Source: Ammonifex degensii KC4 (GTDB taxonomy: Bacteria > Bacillota > Desulfotomaculia > Desulfotomaculales > Ammonificaceae). Taken from it: 64,000 nucleotides of DNA. Shown here piece by piece: positions 18,147 through 32,651 of this stretch; positions within the stretch are counted from its first letter, which is position 1, and each line of letters begins with the position of its first letter. A program made the translations under genes and the position numbers. The notes under the pieces were generated by a model. The model was not told the DNA's origin, searched no databases, and saw only the letters and a program-made list of their open reading frames with translations. The stretch lies in the NCBI RefSeq assembly GCF_000024605.1, contig NC_013385.1, forward strand, positions 1,049,501 through 1,113,500, given 5' to 3'.

Positions 18147-18782
18147 TCACCTTACCCCCTGGAGATTTAGGAACTTCCCCGCTTTCTCACGAATCCTTTC
18201 GAGTTCTGCCGCTCTGGCCTCCTCGGGGGTATTAAAACCGTAACCGGCATCTCTTATGATGTTGACTGGCGCCATGGAAGCTTCGACAATGACCCAACGG
18301 CCGTCCTCTAAGGCCAGAACATAAAGCCGGTAGTTGACTCCATTGTAAAACCAGCGACTCTCCTTCTTGAGCTGATAATCGATAGCGACGTAGTAGGTTA
18401 CCACCTGCGGCCAGACAGCCTTGTAAACGTCTAACCAGGTGATAGCTGCGGCCAGCTTTTCCGGCAGGGGCTTAACTCCCACAAGCTTGGCCCTCACTAC
18501 ATCCCGCATCACATCGGCTTCAGGTTGATTCCTCTTAATATTCGCGATGATCTTTTGGCATTCAGGAGCTGCTTCATGTTTTGCCCGGCACGCAAGGTAA
18601 GCTCCTTCATCGTGGCTTTGCTGGGCAGCTATATCGGCGGCGATCACCGCTTCCGGTGGTTTCGTTTGAGCGTCGGTAGTAGCTTTACCTGCCGCAAACT
18701 CTACTAACGCTGGCATGGCCAGCAGTACCACTGCCAGCACCGCCACCATGACTGCCCGCCACCGGGCACCGAGTCTCCTCAT
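18147..18782 (-). CDS. Exported protein of unknown function
   Basis: A 211-residue protein with a signal peptide (AVMVAVLAVVLLAMPALVEFAAG). The rest is soluble, with two cysteines (YLACRAKHEAAPECQ) that could form a disulfide, and a segment WFYNGVNYRLYVLALEDGRWVIVEASM that reads like a small beta domain. No family was recognised. The start follows AAGGAGGT. Its signal-peptide DNA and its whole promoter/leader are related to the block at 27563-27884 on the other strand, where they precede an unrelated amidase-like protein. Confidence 0.6.
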   Translation of the reverse strand: MRRLGARWRAVMVAVLAVVLLAMPALVEFAAGKATTDAQTKPPEAVIAADIAAQQSHDEGAYLACRAKHEAAPECQKIIANIKRNQPEADVMRDVVRAKLVGVKPLPEKLAAAITWLDVYKAVWPQVVTYYVAIDYQLKKESRWFYNGVNYRLYVLALEDGRWVIVEASMAPVNIIRDAGYGFNTPEEARAAELERIREKAGKFLNLQGVR

Positions 18783-19066
18783 GGCACGGATACCTCCTTA
18801 AAAAATTTTTTCCATTAACCTTCCGCCGTGAAGAGCCACCCCAAAGCTTTCCATCACCTCCCCCGACTCAAAGCTTCCTGCTCCGGCCGCACGTAACTTT
18901 AACTTAGCACCCCTGTTATCCCTGCGCTAAAATTCCATGTCTTCCTTTCACAGGAGTGTAACATGGCACAGCTGTGCCGTCAAGCCCCAAAAGTGGTGTT
19001 TTTCTACTACCTTTGGTGGTATAAACCTCACCCTGCCGGCAGTTCGCGTCGCTTGAAAGAGAGACT
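18781..19066 (-). repeat. Inverted duplicate (copy 1) of promoter-leader block
   Basis: Read on the minus strand, about 215 bases from 19066 to 18850 match 27563-27775 on the plus strand with only about five differences. Similarity then falls, returns over the ribosome-binding site, and continues at roughly 78% through the signal-peptide codons. The two copies are about 8.8 kb apart in opposite orientation. The block contains a sigma-A type promoter, a ~170-base leader and an AAGGAGG site. Confidence 0.85.
18955..18983 (-). promoter_or_regulatory. Sigma-A promoter with palindromic spacer
   Basis: On the minus strand: TTGACG, 17 bases, TACACT. The spacer holds a perfect 14-base palindrome, GGCACAGCTGTGCC (18965-18978), abutting the -35 box, which looks like an operator. 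It drives the exported protein gene at 18147-18782. Confidence 0.75.
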
Positions 19067-19085: not shown

Positions 19086-19218
19086 TTACCGCAGGAGCTT
19101 AGCGCGTAATTCCGCTACGCTTTTAACTCCGAGCTTCTGGAATATTTTCTGGCAGTGCTTTTCAAAGCTTACTGTAATTTAGCTTGCAAGCAGTTCGCGC
19201 AGGTTGCTGACACCGAGC
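19086..19218 (-). pseudogene. LuxR-type helix-turn-helix remnant
   Basis: On the minus strand the DNA reads LGVSNLRELLAS, stop, then ITVSFEKHCQKIFQKLGVKS and VAELRAKLLR, stop. Both pieces look like LuxR/NarL helix-turn-helix C-termini. The upstream part is cut off by the left end of the IS at 19219. It is plausibly the 3' end of the regulator whose GAF-like part lies at 21213-21975 on the same strand, which would mean that IS and vapBC DNA now separate the parts. Confidence 0.5.
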
Positions 19219-20486
19219 TGTATTGAGCCAGGGTTTCGTTCACAGCGAGGCTTTCATTTTTGGGTGGGTAATCCTACGGGAGAGTAGAGAGTTTGTAGGC
19301 ATCGAAGATGTGCGGAGCCAGGTGATCCAGGACTACCACCGGCATAGCCCCTATAGCCGGATGGTAGTGGGAAAGCGAGGTCGCTATTTCCATAGGAGTT
19401 TTCCCGTTCAGTTCCCGGCCCAGATGTGGACGCTGGTAGTTGTAGTAAAGGATCCACCTCTGGGCAGAGATAAGGAAATCCTTCTGGCTTCTGATACCTG
19501 CCAGGTAGGGGATGTAGAACTCTTCATCGTCGGTGCGGTGTGATCTTTCTACATAGCCGTTGGCTTCTTTTCTGCCTGCGGGTATGTTAAGCAGCTGGCA
19601 GTCAAGGCGAGAGAAGATAAGGGACATGAGTTTACGCTTTCTCGAGTTAGGAGGGCCACCGAACTCCGAGCCATTATCGGTCTGGATAAAGATTGTTTGA
19701 TTAAGGCCGAAGGTTTTAAGCCAGTTTGCCAGGAGCACAAGGAAAGCGATTCCGTTGGCGAAAGAGAGGGAGTAGGCGAAGGCTATGAACCGGACCCTTG
19801 TTCGGACATCGATAGCGGTGAACTTGGTAACGGGGCAGGCGGTTTTTCAGAATAGAGGAGTAGGCTGCGGCTGGGAAGGTTGTCTTATCGGCTATGTGCT
19901 TTACATCGACCTGCCAGAAGGAGAAGGGGGCGAAGGCCTGCACGTCGGTCCAGTATTTTCGGGAGCCTGTTTTGCTTTGGCGTTTGCGGCAGCGGATGTG
20001 GTGGCGTTTGAGGATATTTCGTATGGTGTAGGGGGAGAGCTTAATTTTAAGGCTTTGGTACAGGAGGGAGGCGAGGCGTTTAGGGCCCAGGTTAGTTTCC
20101 TGAGCGAGTTTTACGACTAGGGCTTCGAGTTCTTGAGGGGTACGGTTGGGCATTCTTTTTTTGGGGCCGCGAGGGAGGATACAACCGGACAAGTTTCCGC
20201 CGGATTCGTTTAGGCGTTTGCGCAGTTTATAGATCCAGCGGACGGAGCAGCCCATTATGCGGGCTACCTCTTTAGGGCTACAGGTGGTGAGGAGGGAGGC
20301 CACGGTTTGGGCGATTGCCTGGGGGTTTCCGCTCCTCTTAAGTTGCTGGTATAATGTCATCGGGTGGGGTTCCTCCTTTCTTTAAGGTACACTTGCCAGA
20401 AGTGTAGAAGGGAGGGGATCCCCACCCTCTTTAATACGCTCTTCAACTTCAAAAACCTCTGTGAACGAAACTCTGGCCCTTCTACA
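19219..20486 (-). mobile_element. IS481-like insertion sequence, copy A
   Basis: About 1268 bases with TGT...ACA termini. The left end (TGTATTGAGCCAGGGTTTCG) and the right end (complement begins TGTAGAAGGGCCAGAGTTTC) form imperfect terminal inverted repeats. It contains one transposase, frameshifted, on the minus strand. Two further derivatives with the same ends occur at 25519-25715 and 29011-30504. No clear target duplication is visible. Confidence 0.8.
19274..20360 (-). pseudogene. IS481-family DDE transposase, frameshifted
   Basis: The N-terminal frame (20360 down to about 19850) carries a helix-turn-helix (TCSPKEVARIMGCSVRWIYKL) and the first catalytic Asp region (FWQVDVKHIAD). The rest is in another frame: FTAIDVRTRVRFIAFAYSLS, then TDNGSEFGG with the second Asp and YVERSHRTDDEEFY with the Glu. 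A one-base indel near 19830-19860 separates the frames, so the enzyme is probably inactive unless frameshifting occurs. Confidence 0.8.
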
Positions 20487-20572
20487 TACGGTAGCTATGG
20501 AATGCTTTACTTTCTCTCATTCTTACTTTACAATTTCTTTTAGAGTCAATCTTCTGTGTGGGAGGTAAAGTG

Positions 20573-20824
20573 ATGTTCGCCAAGCTTTCGAAAAAGGGCC
20601 AGATTACCCTCCCGGCTGAGGTAAGAAGACTCCTGAAGCTTCGTCCCGGAGCACGCGTCCGATTCGTAGTCGAGAAGGATGCTGCTCGGATTCTTCCGGC
20701 CGAAGGGGGAATCGAGTCGCTCAAGGGTGTCGTCAAGGTGGATACACCGCAGGATTTCAAAGCTGCCCGTCACAAGGCAATGGAGGAACGCAGCCGTGAA
20801 AAAGCCCCGCGTGCTCGACGCTAA
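20573..20824 (+). CDS. vapB: VapB-type antitoxin, AbrB/MazE family
   Basis: An 83-residue antitoxin and autorepressor. The N-terminal swapped-hairpin DNA-binding domain is clear: FAKLSKKGQITLPAEVRRLLKL then RPGARVRFVVEKD. The basic C-terminal tail (FKAARHKAMEERSREKAPRARR) would bind and block the toxin. ATG 20573 is chosen because GGGAGGT lies 7-13 bases upstream. Its end overlaps the toxin gene by 29 bases, normal for these pairs. Confidence 0.82.
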   Translation: MFAKLSKKGQITLPAEVRRLLKLRPGARVRFVVEKDAARILPAEGGIESLKGVVKVDTPQDFKAARHKAMEERSREKAPRARR

Positions 20825-21206
20825 CATTATCCTCCGTTTTCTGACCAGCGATGCTCCGGAGCAGGCTGACCGATGCGCCAAGTTACTGAAGCGCGTGGAG
20901 GCTGGCACCGAAGAGGTCTGGCTGCCGGAGTTAGTTCTGGCAGATATTGTATGGACCCTCGAGAAGTTTTACCGCCAACCCAAGGAGCGGATCCGAGAAC
21001 TTCTCACCTTGATTCTAAACCTGCGCGGCTTGCGTCACGCCAATAAGAAAGTCGCCAAGGAGGCACTTCGGCTTTATGTAGAGAAAAACGTTGACTGGAC
21101 CGACGCCTTTGTTGCCGCCCAGATGTTTTCTCATAAGCAGTGTGAGATTTATTCGTACGACAGAGACTTCGATAGAATAGAAGGTATTATCCGGTTGGAA
21201 CCTTGA
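20796..21206 (+). CDS. vapC: VapC-type PIN-domain toxin
   Basis: A 136-residue PIN-domain ribonuclease toxin. The acidic metal site is visible: first Asp in VLDANIILRFLTSD, Glu in VWLPELVLADIVWTLE, then WTDAFVAAQM and YSYDRDFDRIEG near the end. Start GTG 20796, inside the antitoxin gene, follows GGAGG. All expected acidic residues are present, so the toxin may be active. The pair sits between IS copy A and regulator debris. Confidence 0.85.
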   Translation: MKKPRVLDANIILRFLTSDAPEQADRCAKLLKRVEAGTEEVWLPELVLADIVWTLEKFYRQPKERIRELLTLILNLRGLRHANKKVAKEALRLYVEKNVDWTDAFVAAQMFSHKQCEIYSYDRDFDRIEGIIRLEP

Positions 21207-21212
21207 AAGACT

Positions 21213-21975
21213 TTAGTGGCGTAGATTGTTACTGCTCGTGGTTTTATAACAGTCCAGCAGCAGAAACTCTCTCCGTATCGGATGAATCAAGGTTTGCGAA
21301 GGCACCGCAGCCAAACCCAGTTTCTTCTCCGCGTGCATGGAAATGATCCGCCTGGCGAAGGTGACCAGCAGTGCACCGACACCGAGGCGCGGTGCAACCT
21401 CATCCGGTGGCAGGATGTGCCAGGCCGCGCGAGACTCGGCGGGACTCCAGACGATGGTAACCTGGCAGTAGCCATTAGGTAGGGAACCGGATGTAGATTT
21501 TAAAGCAACACCTTGGCGGGAAGCTAAATGAAACACTGCCTAAGCACCGAGTGGTTTTGTAGGTACCAGGCAGTGCCTCAGGTAAATAAGCTTTCAAAGA
21601 ATCTACAGAAGAAGCTTACTTGCCTTTTGGGAGAGGAACAGGACACCGTATTTTCCGTGGCAGCCAAAACTTCCAGCGCAGCAAAGATCTTGAGCGCCAT
21701 GAGTTCCGGATCGCAGAGGATGTAGATGTAATGCCTTTGCGGGCCGATGCAGCAGACGGGGCTGATCAACTGTTCGACCAAGGAGAGGAGAGCAGCATTG
21801 GCTTTGGGACGGGAGGCAAGCCGGGCCGGGGGTAGGATTTTGCGCAGCCGGGCAAGTTCCGGCGGTACCCCAAGGGAACAGCAGCGGGCATAAGAGGCTT
21901 CAAGCTCCGCAGCGGTGCAGAGGTAGGAGCAGTAGTTTTTCGCCACCAGCGCCGGCTCCTCGGGGAAGGACGGCA
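21213..21975 (-). pseudogene. GAF-type regulator fragment, multiply broken
   Basis: Minus-strand frames carry pieces of a sensor regulator related to the plus-strand fragment at 27126-27590. From upstream to downstream: a block from FPEEPALVAKNYC through LVEQLISPVCC to CDPELMALKIFAALEVLAAT, then after a lesion near 21655 a second frame with ISMHAEKKLGLAAV near 21300. The plus-strand relative has CDPELVALKIFAAPEVLAAT and ISLHAEKELRLAAA. The protein is no longer continuous. Confidence 0.55.
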
Positions 21976-22091
21976 TCTTGGACCATAATGTCTTGCAAGA
22001 AGGTCTCGAAGGAGTGGTTCCCAATATACCTCTGGATCCTGCTAATCGCTTCCAGGATGTCTTCCAAGTAGACTTTAAAATCCCGCGGCAT
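21963..22091 (-). pseudogene. HepT-like toxin, N-terminal fragment
   Basis: MPRDFKVYLEDILEAISRIQ through SFETFLQDIMVQDAVLP is the first ~43 residues of a HepT/DUF86 protein, which is normally about 110-140 residues. The match ends just where the family would continue (QDAVIRNLEIIG-type), and the DNA runs straight into the GAF-regulator fragment. It therefore looks like a deletion junction. It overlaps the mntA remnant by 17 bases. Confidence 0.65.
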
Positions 22092-22330
22092 ACTCCACCT
22101 CGGCGAAGATGTGGGGCTTGAGCCGGGGCTTCACTGCCTCGGCAATCACGAGGTCCACTTTTCTCCCGAATAACTCTTCCAGGAAAAACTTGAGCCCGAA
22201 GTAGTTGTCAAAAGTCTTTTCGGAAAACTCCACCAACAGGTCCAAATCGCTCCCTTCTTCTGCGGTGTCCCTAACTACGGACCAAAGACTCCTATGCGGC
22301 GGACGCCGTAACTTTTAATGATGTCCGCAG
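22075..22330 (-). pseudogene. MntA-like nucleotidyltransferase antitoxin, frameshifted
   Basis: The minus strand reads IKSYGVRRIGVFG, then a one-base loss, then VVRDTAEEGSDLDLLVEFSE and FGRKVDLVIAEAVKP to a stop at 22075. GSDLDLLVEF is the nucleotidyltransferase metal motif and VDLV the third acidic position. There is no start codon before the homology ends near 22340, where a sequence shared with the IS200/IS605 left end begins. Together with hepT it is a dead MntA/HepT module. Confidence 0.7.
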
Positions 22331-25518: not shown

Positions 25519-25715
25519 TGTAGAAGGGCCAGAGTTTCGTTCACAGAGGTTTTTGAAGCGGAAACCCCAAGGCAATCGTCCAAACCGTGGCCTCCCTCCT
25601 CGCCACCTATAGCCCTAAAGAAGTAGCCCACACAATGGGCTGCTCCATGCTTTCCCGTGGGATTACTCACCTAAAAATAAAAGCCTCGGTGTAAACGAAA
25701 CCCTGGCTTAATACA
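25519..25715 (+). mobile_element. 197-bp internally deleted IS481-like element, copy B
   Basis: It starts TGTAGAAGGGCCAGAGTTTC and ends with the complement of the other IS end (..CCCTGGCTTAATACA). Between them is only the first part of the transposase gene, on the plus strand (related to NPQAIAQTVASLLTTCSPKE and MGCS), then a short unrelated piece. This is MITE-like: it could be moved only by a transposase supplied elsewhere. Confidence 0.8.
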
Positions 25716-25728
25716 GCTCTCTGGTTTT

Positions 25729-25778
25729 AAATACCCTAAAATTGGGGTATTTACCCTGGAACACAGTCAGGTTATACT
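25729..25778 (+). promoter_or_regulatory. Promoter with flanking palindrome, third leader cassette
   Basis: TTTACC (25750-25755), 17 bases, TATACT (25773-25778). A perfect inverted repeat with arms AAATACCC (25729-25736) and GGGTATTT (25745-25752) overlaps the -35 box, as an operator would. About 15 bases downstream lies GGCAGGAAGTTTTG, then GGGGAGGTGAT, shared with the leaders at 18.9 kb and 27.7 kb. Confidence 0.6.
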
Positions 25779-25953
25779 CCAGCAAAAGATGGCGGCAGGA
25801 AGTTTTGGTCAATGGGGAGGTGATAGATAGTTAGAGGCAAAATCCGGAGAAAGGCCTTTCGCAGCAGAAAGGTAAGCTTCGGCAGCGAATTCCGGCGAGA
25901 GAAGCTATTGATGTTGGTGTCTCGGGAGGATTTCAGAGTGACCCCGACCGACT

Positions 25954-26328
25954 TAAGCTGATGTTTCAAAGAGCGCCCGAGACTTAGCGCGCAAACTTTA
26001 TTGCGGTGATAACGACTATGACACGACACTAAACGCTTTTTACTACTATACCACCAACTTTCCTGGCTACCACTTTGATATTGATGACGATCCAGAGCCA
26101 CTCGGCAACGGGTATAACGACGAGACGGAAGTAGTTTCCTTAAAGTGCTATGAAATCAAACCGAGTCAATCGTACTATTTCGAGTCATATTTTGAGGTCA
26201 AGAAAAAGCCGCCGGCCGGCAGTCCGACAAGAATCGCTTACTCTTCTCAAGAGAGCTATAGGCACTGGAGCGGGGAATACGACACCATGCTCTACTGCAC
26301 GCACATTAGGTTGAATTACCCGTGGTAG
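25954..26328 (+). pseudogene. C-terminal fragment of an exported protein
   Basis: An open frame without start codon reads ADVSKSARDLARKLYCGDND through GYHFDIDDDPEPLGNGYNDE and KCYEIKPSQSYYFESYFEVK to SGEYDTMLYCTHIRLNYPW and a stop. Stops precede it in frame at 25939 and 25951. It is tyrosine- and aspartate-rich, as is the amidase-like protein at 27.9 kb. It probably lost its N-terminus after the leader at 25.8 kb. No family recognised. Confidence 0.5.
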
Positions 26329-26360: not shown

Positions 26361-27074
26361 ATGCGTTTCAAATCGGTTTTAATAGTGGCTGCCGTTGCTC
26401 TGCTGGTGGTGGCCGGCGCCGTCGGGGTAACCGCGACTCAGATCGTCAGGGCAGGCGGGGACCCGGGCATAGCAGAGTACCAGAAGATTGACGCCAACAA
26501 AGACGGATACATTAGCAAGAAAGAGCTTTTCGCCCATAGAGAAAAGGTGGTGAGCGAAAAACATAAAGCAGCGCTCGAGGCGGCAAAGCGCGGCGGAAAA
26601 AAGGAGAACTTCGTCACCATAACCTTTAACCGGCCCTTGTCCCTGGAAGAATTCGCGCGGTTCGTAAATGAGACCGGCTTGAAGGTGCGCTTTTATGAGG
26701 CGCGGGTAATAGACCATCAGGGATTAAGGGGAACTATGTTTTTTTCAGTACAAAACGGGAAGCTCCTTCCCGACGAAACAGACTTTTCCCTCATGTTATC
26801 GGACTCGGACTACCCAAACAAAAAGAAGAAGTTCCTCGGTATAATCGATGTGATAGGATACTTGGATGTAGAGAAGTTTACTCAGGTCCAGAGTGACCCC
26901 CGCGTTTTCCTGGTTGACAATTCTTGCGATGAGCTCTTTGTTCACAACCCGAAACACAAATACATGCCCAGCCTCTATTGGAAACTCGAGGACTTTGGCC
27001 TGACCAAGGGTCCGAAGTACGAGTTCAGCGACGGGCCAAAAGGAGAGGAACTTAAGAAGATCTTGGAGGAATAA
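26361..27074 (+). CDS. Exported protein with an EF-hand-like calcium loop
   Basis: A 237-residue protein with a signal peptide (SVLIVAAVALLVVAGAVGV). Just after it, IDANKDGYISKKELF is a canonical EF-hand or dockerin-like calcium loop (D-x-N-x-D-x-Y-x-S-x3-E). The remaining 180 residues have no recognised domain. ATG 26361 is preferred to 26355 and to the longer frame from 26322 because TTAGGAGGG is correctly spaced only for 26361. A strong terminator follows. Confidence 0.65.
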   Translation: MRFKSVLIVAAVALLVVAGAVGVTATQIVRAGGDPGIAEYQKIDANKDGYISKKELFAHREKVVSEKHKAALEAAKRGGKKENFVTITFNRPLSLEEFARFVNETGLKVRFYEARVIDHQGLRGTMFFSVQNGKLLPDETDFSLMLSDSDYPNKKKKFLGIIDVIGYLDVEKFTQVQSDPRVFLVDNSCDELFVHNPKHKYMPSLYWKLEDFGLTKGPKYEFSDGPKGEELKKILEE

Positions 27075-27133: not shown

Positions 27134-27590
27134 TGCGGCACCGCCATCCTTCCTGCCAAACCGCCACATCTTCTGCGACCCGGAACTGGTGGCGCTCAAG
27201 ATCTTTGCCGCGCCGGAAGTTTTGGCTGCCACTGAAAGAAAGGGCGTCAAGCCCGGCACCGTTTTCACCGAAGAAAGCTGCGGCACCAACGCCTTAGCCC
27301 TGGCGAAAGAGCACCAGCGCCTCGTTGCCATCCGCGGCGAGCAGCACTACTGCCGGCTCTTTGAAAACTGGTGGTGCGTCGCCAGCCCGGTGAGGGACCC
27401 GGCCGACAGAACCGTCGGCTACCTCGACATCTCGCTGCACGCCGAGAAGGAACTGCGCCTGGCCGCGGCGCACCTGCAAACGCTGGTTAACTTGATAGAA
27501 AAGGAGCTTTACCTCAGGGAACTTGAGCGAAAACTTCGGCAAGCCGGTGTTCGATTGGCCTCTTCGGTCTCTCTTTCAAGCGACGCGAAC
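27126..27590 (+). pseudogene. GAF-type regulator fragment
   Basis: Open without a start from about 27126. It reads HIFCDPELVALKIFAAPEVL, then GTVFTEESCGTNALALAKEH, EQHYCRLFENWWCVASPVRD and GYLDISLHAEKELRLAAAHL. This is the GAF sensory domain found in AcoR/NtrC-like regulators (EESCGTNA, HYC and SPVRD are typical). Neither the N-terminus nor a DNA-binding domain is present. It is related to the minus-strand debris at 21213-21975 and, like the LuxR remnant at 19.1 kb, lies immediately upstream of a copy of the duplicated promoter block. Confidence 0.65.
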
Positions 27591-27884
27591 TGCCGGCAGG
27601 GTGAGGTTTATACCACCAAAGGTAGTAGAAAAACACCACTTTTGGGGCTTGACGGCACAGCCGTGCTATGTTACACTCCTGTGAAAGGAAGACATGGAAT
27701 TTTAGCGCAGGGATAACAGGGGTGCTAAGTTAAAGTTACGCTGTGGCCGGAGCAGGAAGTTTTGAGTCGGGGGAGGTGATGGATGATAAGGCTGGGCTTT
27801 GAGGTGGTTTTCTTTACCGGGGAAGGTTAATGGAAAAAATTCTTTAAGGAGGTATCCATGCTATGGCGAGACTTGGCACCCGGT
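27563..27884 (+). repeat. Inverted duplicate (copy 2) of promoter-leader block
   Basis: The plus-strand counterpart of 18781-19066. Promoter, leader, AAGGAGGT site and the first signal-peptide codons are all recognisable. Between about 27776 and 27830 the two copies differ strongly. The first in-frame codons here are ATGGCGAGACTTGGC then a TGA where the other copy has TGG. Confidence 0.85.
27649..27677 (+). promoter_or_regulatory. Sigma-A promoter (copy 2)
   Basis: TTGACG, 17 bases, TACACT, identical boxes and spacing to the copy at 18955-18983. The spacer palindrome is degraded here (two substitutions, GGCACAGCCGTGCT). Confidence 0.75.
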
Positions 27885-28427
27885 GACGGGCGGTCTTGGT
27901 GGCGGTGCTGACGGTGGTGCTACATGCAAAGCGGCTTGTACAATCGTTCAGGAGCTGTGAACTATGCCTATGCGTATGTCTTTAATTACAACCCCGCTTA
28001 CCATAAATTCAGCGCCGACTGCACCAACTTTGTTTCCCAGTGCCTCAAGGCAGGCGGGATACCGATGGTTAATGCCTGGTGGCGGCCCTGGTGGGATAAA
28101 GACGACTGGTACTACTACCGCCATGGTAGTGATGCTTACGACAGCAACAACGACGACGACTGGTCCTGGAGCTGGGTGAAGGTGCAGACCCTTTATTACC
28201 ACATCAAGGCTCGGTTGGGGACCCAGGTTTCTTCGCCGAGCCAGTTGCAATTAGGTGACATTGTGCAGGTTGATTTTGATGGTGACGGTACATTGGATCA
28301 TTCGATGATCGTAACAAAGATTGACGGTAATGGAAACAGGTATGTGATGTATTATACCGTTGATCGGAAGGACAGGCTTCTACATGAGATTAACGGCACC
28401 AAATACTACCTCCATATTACGTATTAA
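27863..28427 (+). pseudogene. Amidase_6-like exported protein with broken signal peptide
   Basis: The frame from ATG 27924 (167 residues) is an intact putative amidase domain: YNRSGAVNYAYAYVFNYNPA, then FSADCTNFVSQCLKAGGIPM with the likely catalytic Cys, LGDIVQVDFDGDGTLDHSMI with a candidate His, and a Tyr-rich end. Such domains act outside the cell, yet no signal peptide precedes it. The expected signal peptide is visible upstream, aligned to that of the 18.1-kb protein, but has TGA in place of the Trp at codon 8 and is out of frame with the domain. Probably dead or trapped in the cytosol. Confidence 0.7.
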
Positions 28428-28508: not shown

Positions 28509-28998
28509 TTGAGGAAACGCGTCGTTTTCTGGATGTTTTTAGTTACTGTTTTGATGATAATTATATCCGGGTGCCAGAAATACGATTCTGTACGAACTTT
28601 GGAAGTCAAAGAAGCTAAAGTTAGGGGCTACTTTTCTAACGATCCTAATTCTCCTATTCGATATGACCAATATAAGGGCGAAAAGCCTGACCCAGAAAAG
28701 CATCGCCTTGTGACATATACGGTAACCGTAAGAAATACCGAAAAAAAAGAAGAAAAATTTTGTTGTATGTGAACCTATTTTGGATCCCGTCCTCAGGAAA
28801 TTTATCATAAACGAAGGGTTAGGAATACCCATGCCTATCTCTCCAGGGCAAGAAGTTACTTTGGACAAAGTCCACTACCTTACTGAAGGTAACCCTGCCG
28901 AGGTGGAAAGACTTGCCTACCAGAGCAAGGTACGGATCGTCTGGGAAGAAGGTGGCAAGAAGTGGGAGAAAATCGTCAGTGTTACTCCGGAGAGGTAA
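28509..28998 (+). pseudogene. Small lipoprotein, frameshifted in an A8 run
   Basis: The first frame (TTG 28509, behind TTTGGAGGG) gives a lipoprotein signal with lipobox IISGC and about 85 residues, ending FCCM. The second frame continues through KNFVVCEPILDPVLRKFIIN and GIPMPISPGQEVTLDKVHYL to VTPER at 28998. The frames meet at eight A residues (28741-28748); seven would restore one protein of about 163 residues. The function is unknown; the second part resembles a beta-sandwich seen in small exported proteins. Confidence 0.65.
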
Positions 28999-29010: not shown

Positions 29011-30504
29011 TGTATTGAGCCAGGGGTTTCGTTCACAGCGTAGTATAGTTTAGATTAAGGCCGAAGGTTTTAGAAAAATGGGGGAGCGCGAGGGGGCTGT
29101 AATCCCCCTCAATGAATTGAGGGGATCGTCGAAAGCCCCTCGCAGTACGGTGGTATAATGGCACAAAGGTCCAGGGAAAGGAGGTGAACCGTGAGTGCCC
29201 CTCGTCACCATCAGAGCCCAGGTTCACGCCGACCCCGAGACCCTGGCCGTCCTTAAAGACGCCATGTTTTGCGCCACCAAGGTCTACAACGGCCTCCTCT
29301 GGCACCTGCGGAAAGAATACGAAGAGACCGGGAAGGTAGATATTTCCCGCAAAAATCTCAACTGCATCTTGAAAGGGCTTCCCCGGGCGAAGGGCTACTA
29401 CTCGATGTCCGTGCAGCTCACGCGGGACGAGGTGCGGGAAGCGTATAAGTCCTTCTTTGCCCTCAAGAAAAAGGGCCTCACGCAGCACGAGGCTCCAGGA
29501 TTTCGCCGGAAAGGTTATCTCTCCCCGCTCAAGTACGTCCAGAGCGGCTTCAAGGTGGAAGGAGATAAGGTCACGGTTTCTCTGGGCACCGGCCGGGAAG
29601 ACGGGGTGAGGGAAGTTTCCTTCCGCATTTCCCACCGTCCCGGCGTGGAGTACGAGCGGGTGCGGGAGCTCTCCATCACCTACGACAAGGTGTCCGGGCG
29701 AATCGAAGCCCGCCTGGTGGTGGAGGTGAAGGCGAACCCGTGTCCCGGCAGACTGAGGGTTGCCCTGGACCTGGGGGAGACCGTCCTCATGGCGGCCGCC
29801 TTCGAGGACGGGACCGTGATGCTCTACTCCGGCAGGTTTATCAAGTCGGTGAGGCGGTACTGGCAGAAGGTGCGGGCGAACCTCAAGCCAAACTCCCGCA
29901 GGTGGAGGGAGGTAGCCCACCGGGAAAAGCTTCAGGTGGAGCACCTGCTCCACGTGGCCACGTCCCACTTCATAGAGGAGTGCGTGAAGCGGGGTGTGGG
30001 AGAGATAGCCATCGGGGCGATCACGGGCATCCGCGAGAATATCGACTACGGAGAGCGGCTCAACCAGAGGCTGCACGCCTGGCCGTACCGGAAGCTCATC
30101 AACATGCTCAAGTACAAGGGTGCTCTGGCGGGAATTGTGGTTCGGGACGATGTGGACGAGAGGGACACCTCTGCGCGCTGTCACGCCTGCGGGCGTGTAC
30201 TGCCTTCCAACCGGAAGCACAGGGGTTTATACACGTGTTCCTGCGGCTGGAGGGCGCAGGCGGACGTGAACGGCTCTTTGAACATCTTCGAGAGGGCGTA
30301 CGAGGTATCTCCCGTCAAGGGGAGTAGTGGCCGTGTGGCGCGGCCTGTGGTCCTGTCGCTCCACCTGGGGTGGCACGGAGTCCACGAACCGAAGCGCAAG
30401 GAAAAGACCTTGCGCGCATCCCTTTAAAGGGATGCCCCTCAATTCATAGAGAGGAGGACGTCACGCCAGAAAACCTCTGTGAACGAAACTCTGGCCCTTC
30501 TACA
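29011..30504 (+). mobile_element. IS481-like remnant (copy C) carrying a nested IS200/IS605-type tnpB unit
   Basis: Both outer ends match IS copy A (left TGTATTGAGCCAGG, right ..CTCTGGCCCTTCTACA). Just inside the left end a piece of transposase DNA survives (GATTAAGGCCGAAGGTTTTA, matching 19701-19720). The rest of the transposase is replaced by a tnpB gene flanked by short hairpins: CCCCTCAATGAATTGAGGGG near 29106 and CCCCTCAATTCAT near 30435. Confidence 0.75.
29195..30427 (+). CDS. tnpB: TnpB-like RNA-guided nuclease (IS200/IS605 OrfB)
   Basis: A 410-residue TnpB-family protein. The split RuvC domain shows the first Asp in RVALDLGETV near 190, the middle segment IAIGAITGIREN near 270, and the last Asp in QADVNGSLNIF near 360. 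The zinc ribbon is CHACGRVLP...CSCGW between them. The start GTG 29195 follows AAAGGAGGTG. No tnpA partner adjoins it. The RuvC-II Glu is not obvious at its usual place (GAI rather than an E-D type motif), though REN could supply it, so activity is uncertain. Confidence 0.82.
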   Translation: MPLVTIRAQVHADPETLAVLKDAMFCATKVYNGLLWHLRKEYEETGKVDISRKNLNCILKGLPRAKGYYSMSVQLTRDEVREAYKSFFALKKKGLTQHEAPGFRRKGYLSPLKYVQSGFKVEGDKVTVSLGTGREDGVREVSFRISHRPGVEYERVRELSITYDKVSGRIEARLVVEVKANPCPGRLRVALDLGETVLMAAAFEDGTVMLYSGRFIKSVRRYWQKVRANLKPNSRRWREVAHREKLQVEHLLHVATSHFIEECVKRGVGEIAIGAITGIRENIDYGERLNQRLHAWPYRKLINMLKYKGALAGIVVRDDVDERDTSARCHACGRVLPSNRKHRGLYTCSCGWRAQADVNGSLNIFERAYEVSPVKGSSGRVARPVVLSLHLGWHGVHEPKRKEKTLRASL

Positions 30505-30766: not shown

Positions 30767-32651
30767 TGTGCCCGGCATGGGCGTTGTCTATAGGGTGAAA
30801 GTCCCGAACGACGAAGGTGGCGGTAGTCGTTAGCTTAAGGCAAGGGTGTCCGCCGCGAGGCGGAATCCGAAGGAAGCCGGCGGCAAACCTCCGGCCCGAG
30901 GACCACGAACCCCAGGCGAGGCTAGCGGCAGCTGGATGAGCTTGCAAAACAAAGCGAAGTCCTGGCCACCGAAGGCTGCCGAGAGTAGATGGGGCGGGTA
31001 GATGGAGGGAAAGACAGCGCCCTTACCCGGGGAGGCCTGCCGGACAAGCCGGGTTATCCGGCAACCTGTACCGAGAGGTGCGGCTGAACCGGCAGGAGTC
31101 AGCAGACGCCATAGTACTCCCTTTTAAGATGTCAAAGGGGGGAAGGGCCGAACATGAGGAGCGGGGAGCCCATGGAAGGTTCGCGGAGGGAGCAACGACA
31201 GCCGAAAATCCCGGCAGGGAGCTGCCCACAGGAGGAAGCGGTGAATCCGCGGGGAACTGTGGGAGTGCCGAGCACCCTCCCGGCACCGATGGAGCAACTC
31301 GGCGGAGACCCACGGTACTGCCTGATGGAACAGGTAGTCGAGCGGGCCAACATGACGAAGGCCCTGCGCCGAGTGGAGCGGAACGGAGGCGCAGCCGGAG
31401 TGGATGGGATGGAGCCAGAAGCCCTACGCTCCTACCTGAAAGAACACTGGCCGCGCATCAAGGAAGAACTGCTCGCGGGGACCTACCGGCCCATGCCGGT
31501 GCGCCGGGTCGAAATCCCGAAACCCGGTGGCGGCGTGCGGCTGTTGGGCATCCCCACGGTGCTGGACCGCCTGATCCAGCAGGCCCTGCTTCAGGTACTG
31601 ACACCCATCTTTGACCCCGGGTTTTCCCCACACAGCTACGGTTTCCGCCCGGGGCGCAGCGCCCACCAGGCGGTGGAGCAAGCCCGCAGGTACGTGGCCC
31701 AGGGCTACCGGCACGTGGTGGACCTCGACCTGGCACAATTCTTCGACCGCGTCAACCATGACCTCCTGATGGCCAGGGTGGCGCGGAAGGTGAAGGACAA
31801 GCGGGTACTCAAGTTAATACGGGCCTACCTTCAGGCCGGAGTCATGATTAATGGCTGCTGCGTACGCACGGAGGAGGGCACCCCGCAGGGAGGGCCGCTG
31901 AGCCCGCTTCTGGCCAATATCATTCTGGACGACCTGGACAAAGAACTGGAGCGGCGCGGCCACAAGTTCGTAAGGTACGCCGATGACAGCAACGTTTACG
32001 TAAGAAGCTGCCGCGCCGGCCAGCGGGTGTTCGAGAGCCTGAAGCGCTTCCTGGAGCAACGGCTCAAGCTACGGATAAACGAGGAAAAGAGCGCCGTGGA
32101 CTACGCCTGGCGGCGCGGAATCCTCGGCTTTTCCTTCACCTGGGAAAAGGAGCCGCGCATCCGGCTGGCACCCCAGACGGTGAAGCGGTTCAAGCAGCGC
32201 ATCCGCTGGCTCACCAAGCGCAGCCGCAGTGTGAATATGGCCGAGCGTCTGGCGCGCCTCAACGAATACCTCAAGGGATGGATGGGCTACTTTCGGCTGA
32301 TAGAGACCCCCAGCACACTGCAGGCCCTGGACGAGTGGATACGGCGGCGACTGCGCATGTGTCTGTTGAAGCAATGGAAGCGGCCCCGCACCAGACGACG
32401 CAACCTGGTGGCCCTGGGCATTCCTGAGGACTGGGCGCGCCACATTAGCGGTTCGCGCAAAGGCTGCTGGCGGCTGGCGAACACGCCCCAGGTGAACAAA
32501 GCCCTTGGCCTTGCCTACTGGCGCAGCCAAGGGCTGGTTAGCTTGGTCGACCGGTACCGTGAACTTCGTAGTGCCTCATGAACCGCCGTATACCGAACGG
32601 TACGTACGGTGGTGTGAGAGGACGGGGGTTAGCCGCCCCCTCCTACTCGAT
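30766..32651 (+). mobile_element. Group II intron, bacterial class C type
   Basis: About 1.9 kb. The 5' end GTGTGCCCGG fits the group II GUGYG consensus. The 3' part after the maturase has a domain V-like hairpin (ACCGAACGGTACGTACGGT region near 32592) and a domain VI ending in CTACTCGAT (32644-32651). The insertion directly behind an intrinsic terminator is the usual target of class C introns. End positions rest on consensus and may be off by a few bases. Confidence 0.85.
31154..32581 (+). CDS. ltrA: Group II intron reverse transcriptase/maturase
   Basis: A 475-residue intron-encoded protein. Reverse transcriptase blocks include GVDGMEPEALRSYL, IPKPGGGVRLLGIPTVLDRL, HSYGFRPGRSAHQA, VVDLDLAQFFDRVNHD, GTPQGGPLSPLLANI and the catalytic RYADDSNVY near 275. 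A maturase X domain follows (LNEYLKGWMGYFRLIE). There is no C-terminal HNH endonuclease, as usual in class C introns. It supports splicing and reinsertion of the surrounding intron. Confidence 0.93.
   Translation: MRSGEPMEGSRREQRQPKIPAGSCPQEEAVNPRGTVGVPSTLPAPMEQLGGDPRYCLMEQVVERANMTKALRRVERNGGAAGVDGMEPEALRSYLKEHWPRIKEELLAGTYRPMPVRRVEIPKPGGGVRLLGIPTVLDRLIQQALLQVLTPIFDPGFSPHSYGFRPGRSAHQAVEQARRYVAQGYRHVVDLDLAQFFDRVNHDLLMARVARKVKDKRVLKLIRAYLQAGVMINGCCVRTEEGTPQGGPLSPLLANIILDDLDKELERRGHKFVRYADDSNVYVRSCRAGQRVFESLKRFLEQRLKLRINEEKSAVDYAWRRGILGFSFTWEKEPRIRLAPQTVKRFKQRIRWLTKRSRSVNMAERLARLNEYLKGWMGYFRLIETPSTLQALDEWIRRRLRMCLLKQWKRPRTRRRNLVALGIPEDWARHISGSRKGCWRLANTPQVNKALGLAYWRSQGLVSLVDRYRELRSAS

Follow-up and report, generated by a model that had tools for sequence, protein, structure and literature searches.

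A truncated operator-promoter-leader copy in Ammonifex degensii, probably one member of a dispersed regulator-linked cassette type

We analyzed a 64,000-nucleotide stretch of the Ammonifex degensii KC4 genome (here called the window), in which leaders at 18.85 kb (n18) and 27.75 kb (am27) are joined by a third copy beginning at position 25729. This third copy probably belongs, in truncated and partly dead form, to a dispersed type of cassette, in which a regulator gene is followed by an operator, a promoter, a leader and an exported-protein gene. It is homologous to its relatives through operator, promoter and leader, it shares their gene order and spacing, and it is decayed. When genomes of related bacteria were compared, the same kind of predicted unit was found to recur beside a shared regulator family. 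Coordinates are collected in Table 1.

Table 1. Features of the three cassettes and their surroundings (window positions)
Feature	Position	Strand	Remark
Exported-looking 211-aa gene, 18.85-kb cassette	18147..18782	-	no Pfam family
Leader core, 18.85-kb cassette	18850..18891	-	
Operator-promoter, 18.85-kb cassette	18918..19003	-	R3
GerE-type HTH tail just upstream of 18.85-kb operator	19086..19178	-	frame read by eye
Second regulator fragment (N-terminal part)	21647..21988	-	
IS deletion derivative	25519..25719	.	matched at both ends by the IS copy at 19215-20486
Palindromic operator-like dyad, TAC..GTA type, putative regulator site	25728..25753	+	sequence
Homologue of G006 C3 (locus L050): operator, promoter and leader	25729..25900	+	alignment; R3 model
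Promoter TTTACC-17-TATACT	25750..25778	+	-35 overlapped by palindrome
Leader stretch common to 27.75-kb and 18.85-kb leaders	25795..25839	+	local alignment
Remnant of gene A (exported protein), head missing, 123 codons	25957..26325	+	without usable start
Intact gene B, exported-looking 237-aa protein	26361..27074	+	ATG at 26361
DhaR-like/GerE regulator fragment (sensor part), upstream of 27.75-kb leader	27147..27554	+	
Operator-promoter, 27.75-kb cassette	27629..27714	+	degraded right arm; operator model R3, alignment
Leader core, 27.75-kb cassette	27735..27783	+	
Amidase_6 domain remnant, 27.75-kb cassette region	27924..28427	+	full-length relative in G020 (L009)

The third copy opens with a perfect 8+8 bp palindrome, AAATACCC-N8-GGGTATTT, at 25729-25752, which matched once in the window (none expected from 100 shuffles). 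A sequence-only reading of this DNA had described a palindrome overlapping the promoter, and we confirmed it, with one additional pair on the outside at 25728/25753. The promoter itself agrees with the consensus at 9 of 12 positions, and sites of this kind are not rare, since 4 were found in the window with 2.3 expected. Measured by eye, the distance from the end of the dyad to the -10 was 23 nt in the third copy, in G006_C3a and in three loci of the same-genus genome G001, and 24 nt in G006_C1. Comparison inside the window was of limited reach: the common leader stretch aligned with 27752-27793 over ∼45 nt (local score 43; shuffles 18.5 ± 2.4, with 0 of 1,000 reaching it), and beyond it the likeness to the two other leaders was at shuffle level in plain alignment. 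A search of the whole genome with the 621-bp region returned only the region itself and a 34-nt match in the 27.75-kb leader (E = 0.026), and no copy was found at the DNA level in the same-genus genome. An exact two-part leader pattern occurred twice in the own genome and in none of the other 112 genomes of the order; such counts first suggested a genome-private repeat, a reading that was overturned by the covariance models R1 to R3.

Model R1, built from the three window leader cores and run on 113 genomes of the order, gave a match at E ≤ 1 in 101 of them, many at 15 to 26 bits and mostly by chance. Among the 19 R1 loci that were read and aligned, only L050, in G006 (from a different genus of the same family), and L046, in G047 (from a different family), held up; L064 showed the GGGGCAGGAAGTTTTG string only. 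The alignment of the third copy with L050 (G006_C3a) runs for ∼170 nt, from the palindrome to the end of the leader, with a score of 94 (shuffles 23.5 ± 3.6, 0 of 300 as high, Z = 19). Model R2, made from the -10 and leader of the third copy, two G006 loci and G047, with am27 and n18 left out, recovered am27 at E = 1.3e-5 together with two further loci in G001. Model R3 came from four non-window loci in G006 and G001 only; on the window, 25729-25822 was the best of its five matches (E = 1.5e-9), and the other four were the promoters and leaders of the 27.75- and 18.85-kb cassettes (E = 0.002 to 0.15). Outside its own loci, R3 matched G047 (E = 4.7e-10) and the 2.9-kb locus on C16 of G001 (E = 1.4e-6), followed by weak matches. 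The models and the G006 alignment thus make the third copy a true relative of the 18.85- and 27.75-kb leaders, as had been proposed. The family that the sequence-only reading envisaged is real, but it is not local, with members in G001, G006 and G047. The leaders of G003, G005_C1, G005_C9, G005_C1b, G041 and G002 showed no significant likeness to the third copy (Z = -0.8 to 2.1), so that conservation of the leader is limited to a sub-group.

The 18.85- and 27.75-kb leaders form an inverted duplication (374 nt, 88.8%). Their promoters align with the operator type of the third copy, the right arm being mostly lost in both, and both operator-promoter regions match the same operator model; the different operators that had been assigned to the copies thus give way to one operator type throughout. 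Tandem R3 matches at 27629-27779 and 18855-19003 point to an apparent second, partial -10/leader unit behind the first promoter. The cargo of the window cassettes consists of the 211-aa gene, the Amidase_6 remnant and the A-B pair. Elsewhere, translations read by eye revealed a gene beginning with a signal-like stretch behind the promoter at two loci of G006 (one of them frameshifted) and at three of G005, in G047, G041 and G002, and at the 6.0- and 8.0-kb loci of G001; an ABC transporter lies behind the promoter at 2.9 kb in G001, and the G037 region is partly N. Pfam assigned two of the cassette genes to Reprolysin_5 metallopeptidases, one of them followed by a SurA-like protein, and one to a papain-like C70/C39 peptidase. 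A lipoprotein gene at 28509-28998 of the window is frameshifted; judged by eye, a similar gene adjoins Amidase_6 in G020 (L009), and a two-repeat, 314-aa form lies in G129 (L127 10894-11838) near a matrixin-like peptidase and A-B.

The neighborhood of the third copy is full of IS pieces and broken genes. Its operator begins ten bases past the IS end at 25719, and on our best reading this IS end removed the regulator side, i.e., whatever lay upstream of the operator. One IS end, 31 nt long, is identical in three copies (20452-20482, 25523-25553 and 30470-30500), marking past insertions around the broken region. The window also holds an OrfB_IS605/TnpB-like gene at 29195-30427 and a group II intron at 30849-32651, with a reverse transcriptase-like open reading frame (ORF) at 31154-32581, directly behind two tRNA genes. 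Within 20558-21206 and 21900-22245 we noted a MazE-like antitoxin gene (PF04014) with a PIN-like neighbor and, by eye, a pair of pieces resembling a HEPN/MNT toxin-antitoxin system.

Gene A is a beheaded frame without a usable start, as the sequence-only reading had recognized, although it has 123 sense codons, bounded by TAA at 25954 and TAG at 26326, and not 124. It is not a normal ORF, because the earliest in-frame ATG, GTG or TTG is found only at 26287. A full-length gene, which the same reading had proposed to seek in related genomes, does exist: the best relative, found in Fonticella tunisiensis (L005), has 213 aa and begins with a signal-like segment. By eye, the window frames upstream of A showed no similarity to the N terminus of this protein. 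On our best reading, the missing head of A was removed by a deletion. Gene B keeps an open frame whose N terminus is signal-like. With the regulator side lost and A dead, the promoter would serve at most gene B, either constitutively or under a regulator acting in trans, as the regulator copy at C1:2042833, outside the window, would need to do; B may still be using it. The copy could also be dead altogether, with its promoter and operator unused and gene B either transcribed in some other way or silent, and the broken genes, the IS pieces all around and the loss of A would agree with this. We nevertheless regard complete death as somewhat unlikely, given that neither the palindrome nor the -35, the -10 or the spacing is damaged and that B has kept an open, signal-like frame.

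Alignment of A against 398 genomes of the phylum gave a match in 5, own genome counted. A relative of A is also carried by a Bacillota metagenome-assembled genome (L006), and the order A then B is kept in L005, L006, L038 (G129) and L039 (G252); the match in the fifth genome of the search, G411, was weak, with no B beside A by eye. In L041 (G120), A and B form a single frame of 399 aa (1360-2559). Recurrence of the neighborhood in several genomes and the fusion in G120 suggest a joint function of the two proteins. The state seen in the window, A beheaded and B open, is shared by L038 and L039, making three genomes. No protein A turned up in searches of plasmids, phages and viral contigs, and at cut-off neither A nor B belongs to a Pfam or NCBIfam family, one weak EF-hand-like match being recorded for B. 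The AlphaFold model of A was uninformative (pLDDT 38); that of B had alpha/beta order (pLDDT 59) and no significant Foldseek match. Since L005, L006, L038 and L039 had no R3 match, this promoter is not a general companion of the A-B pair.

The regulator side is best seen in G006, where the L050 locus lies directly behind a gene for a regulator with a DhaR-like sensor and a LuxR/GerE helix-turn-helix (HTH). Members of this family are ∼290 aa long, with the sensor N-terminal and the GerE HTH C-terminal. The sensor part matched DhaR (PDB 4lrx) at E = 7e-7, and three copies matched NCBIfam PRK11388 at E = 5e-14 to 3e-18, with 51.6 to 65.5 bits falling short of the 551-bit equivalog cut-off; the HTH matched PF00196 at E = 1.3e-15 and 1.2e-14 in two copies. 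DhaR has a GAF-type sensor region, and Pfam reported no GAF domain in the regulator. The G006 C3 copy has a frameshift inside its HTH. In the order, 9 of the 113 genomes contain regulator copies with at least 45% identity, and in G047 the leader is present with no close regulator copy. Within the window there is no whole regulator gene, only fragments, none of which adjoins the third copy, where the IS remnant abuts the operator. Elsewhere in the genome we found a partial copy (C1:1184582) and the one at C1:2042833, the sole long copy. The sequence TACCCCTTTTTTGGGTA lies upstream of the long regulator of the own genome (L105 263-279) and of its G001 counterpart (L100, reverse strand), where it is possibly an autoregulatory site.

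We read the DNA behind 15 regulator copies, of which 12 had an intact 3' end. A strict TAC..GTA dyad stood no more than 150 nt past the stop in 7 of these 12 loci. When the 12 were taken together with the third copy, am27 and n18, 8 of 15 regions had a strict dyad, compared with a mean of 0.30 and a maximum of 3 in 400 rounds of shuffling; since these loci also supplied the rule, only the third copy serves as a semi-independent test, with a ∼2% chance per region. Taken singly and uncorrected, the palindrome scores were weak, 1 to 77 of 100 shuffles being equally good. A permutation of arm pairing (27 of 30, with 0 of 10,000 as high) is not independent, because most of the sites had been chosen as palindromes. 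Five of the 12 loci had no strict dyad: G001_C23 and G000_2042, where there is no cassette downstream and TACCCCTTTTTTGGGTA instead lies upstream of the regulator, and G041, G002 and G037, which have imperfect dyad sites only.

In the cassette that we propose, the gene of a DhaR-like/GerE one-component regulator would be followed by a TAC..GTA dyad, sometimes by two, then by a promoter whose -35 overlaps the dyad, and then by a leader with a strong Shine-Dalgarno-like segment and one or more exported-protein genes, several of them encoding hydrolases. A small molecule sensed by the regulator would lead it to bind the dyad and, most likely, to activate transcription. If transcription starts 7 nt past the -10, the dyad would be centered at about -44.5; LuxR-type proteins are class II activators, which a center near -44.5 fits. 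We infer that the regulator binds the dyad and that it activates rather than represses. The overlap with the -35 would also suit a repressor, or a protein other than the GerE-type regulator, and in the relatives the -35 (TTTACA) is so near the consensus that an activator may be unnecessary. We consider this unlikely, however, since the dyads stand directly behind the regulator gene and at a set distance from the promoter, and since their position suits class II activation.

The leader 3' of the promoter is conserved as well, and two GCAGGAAG-like segments are found in the leaders of G006 and the third copy, as might be expected if the conserved element were a structured, riboswitch-like regulatory RNA. 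We hold this to be very improbable. No Rfam family reached its gathering score in the leaders, which had sub-threshold matches only; the folding of the third copy and n18 was no better than that of shuffles, and that of am27 differed weakly (z = -1.66); and compensatory double changes were few (0 of 6, 4 of 24 and 3 of 25 pairs in three alignments of 3 sequences each). A conserved or covarying fold in these leaders is thus not supported. Behind the regulators of G003 and G005, three loci (L098, L102 and L104) share by eye a different long leader, GGTGGNATNCCTCCGGTCAANCG ... GGTGATTTTCAAGT and similar, which looks like a conserved structured RNA and had no Rfam match. The last alternative, already named in the sequence-only reading, is that the common stretch is merely a strong Shine-Dalgarno segment in a generic ribosome-binding context, or chance, and it is hardly credible, because the likeness, which in window-only comparisons is limited to ∼45 nt containing GGGGAGGTGAT with a genome-wide E of only 0.026, runs through operator, promoter and leader in R1 to R3 and in the G006 alignment, and because R3 recovers the site without any window sequence.

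Taking the third copy, then, as a truncated member of a dispersed cassette type, we put forward a broader proposal only tentatively, as itself rather doubtful: these cassettes might constitute an undescribed dispersed expression platform in a group of Bacillota, with DhaR-like/GerE regulators and with TAC..GTA operators whose inner palindromic arms are locus specific, so that copies are maybe insulated from paralogues; the exported hydrolases under this control would be interchangeable, with frequent gain, beheading and loss. None of the libraries searched (including Rfam, Pfam and NCBIfam) names the regulator family, its operator or its exported targets, and the titles and abstract openings returned by a literature search contained no description of this cassette. 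If the cassette reading is correct, it would provide an uncharacterized regulator family together with DNA sites readable from sequence alone; it would place a number of so far unnamed exported proteins, among them A, B and the 211-aa protein, in a single type of regulated unit; and it would offer paralogous regulator-operator pairs within one genome for studying how such pairs are kept apart.

Among known systems, cis-regulatory leader RNAs of Rfam likewise have a conserved 5' leader between promoter and gene, and the present leaders differ from them in having no family match and no supported covariation. DhaR, the regulator of the dihydroxyacetone kinase operon, is alike in its N-terminal sensor region; here, the protein is ∼290 aa long, a GerE HTH replaces the remainder of the 643-position DhaR model, and the match is far below the equivalog cut-off. 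Compared with the LuxR/GerE "solo" regulators, which have a palindromic box near -42, the sensor here is DhaR-like rather than an autoinducer-binding or receiver domain, the targets are exported proteins, and binding to the dyad is putative. Common to both are the C-terminal GerE HTH, a palindrome overlapping the -35 and a regulator adjoining its presumed target, and the combination of a GerE HTH with a palindromic box near -40 is already familiar among regulators.
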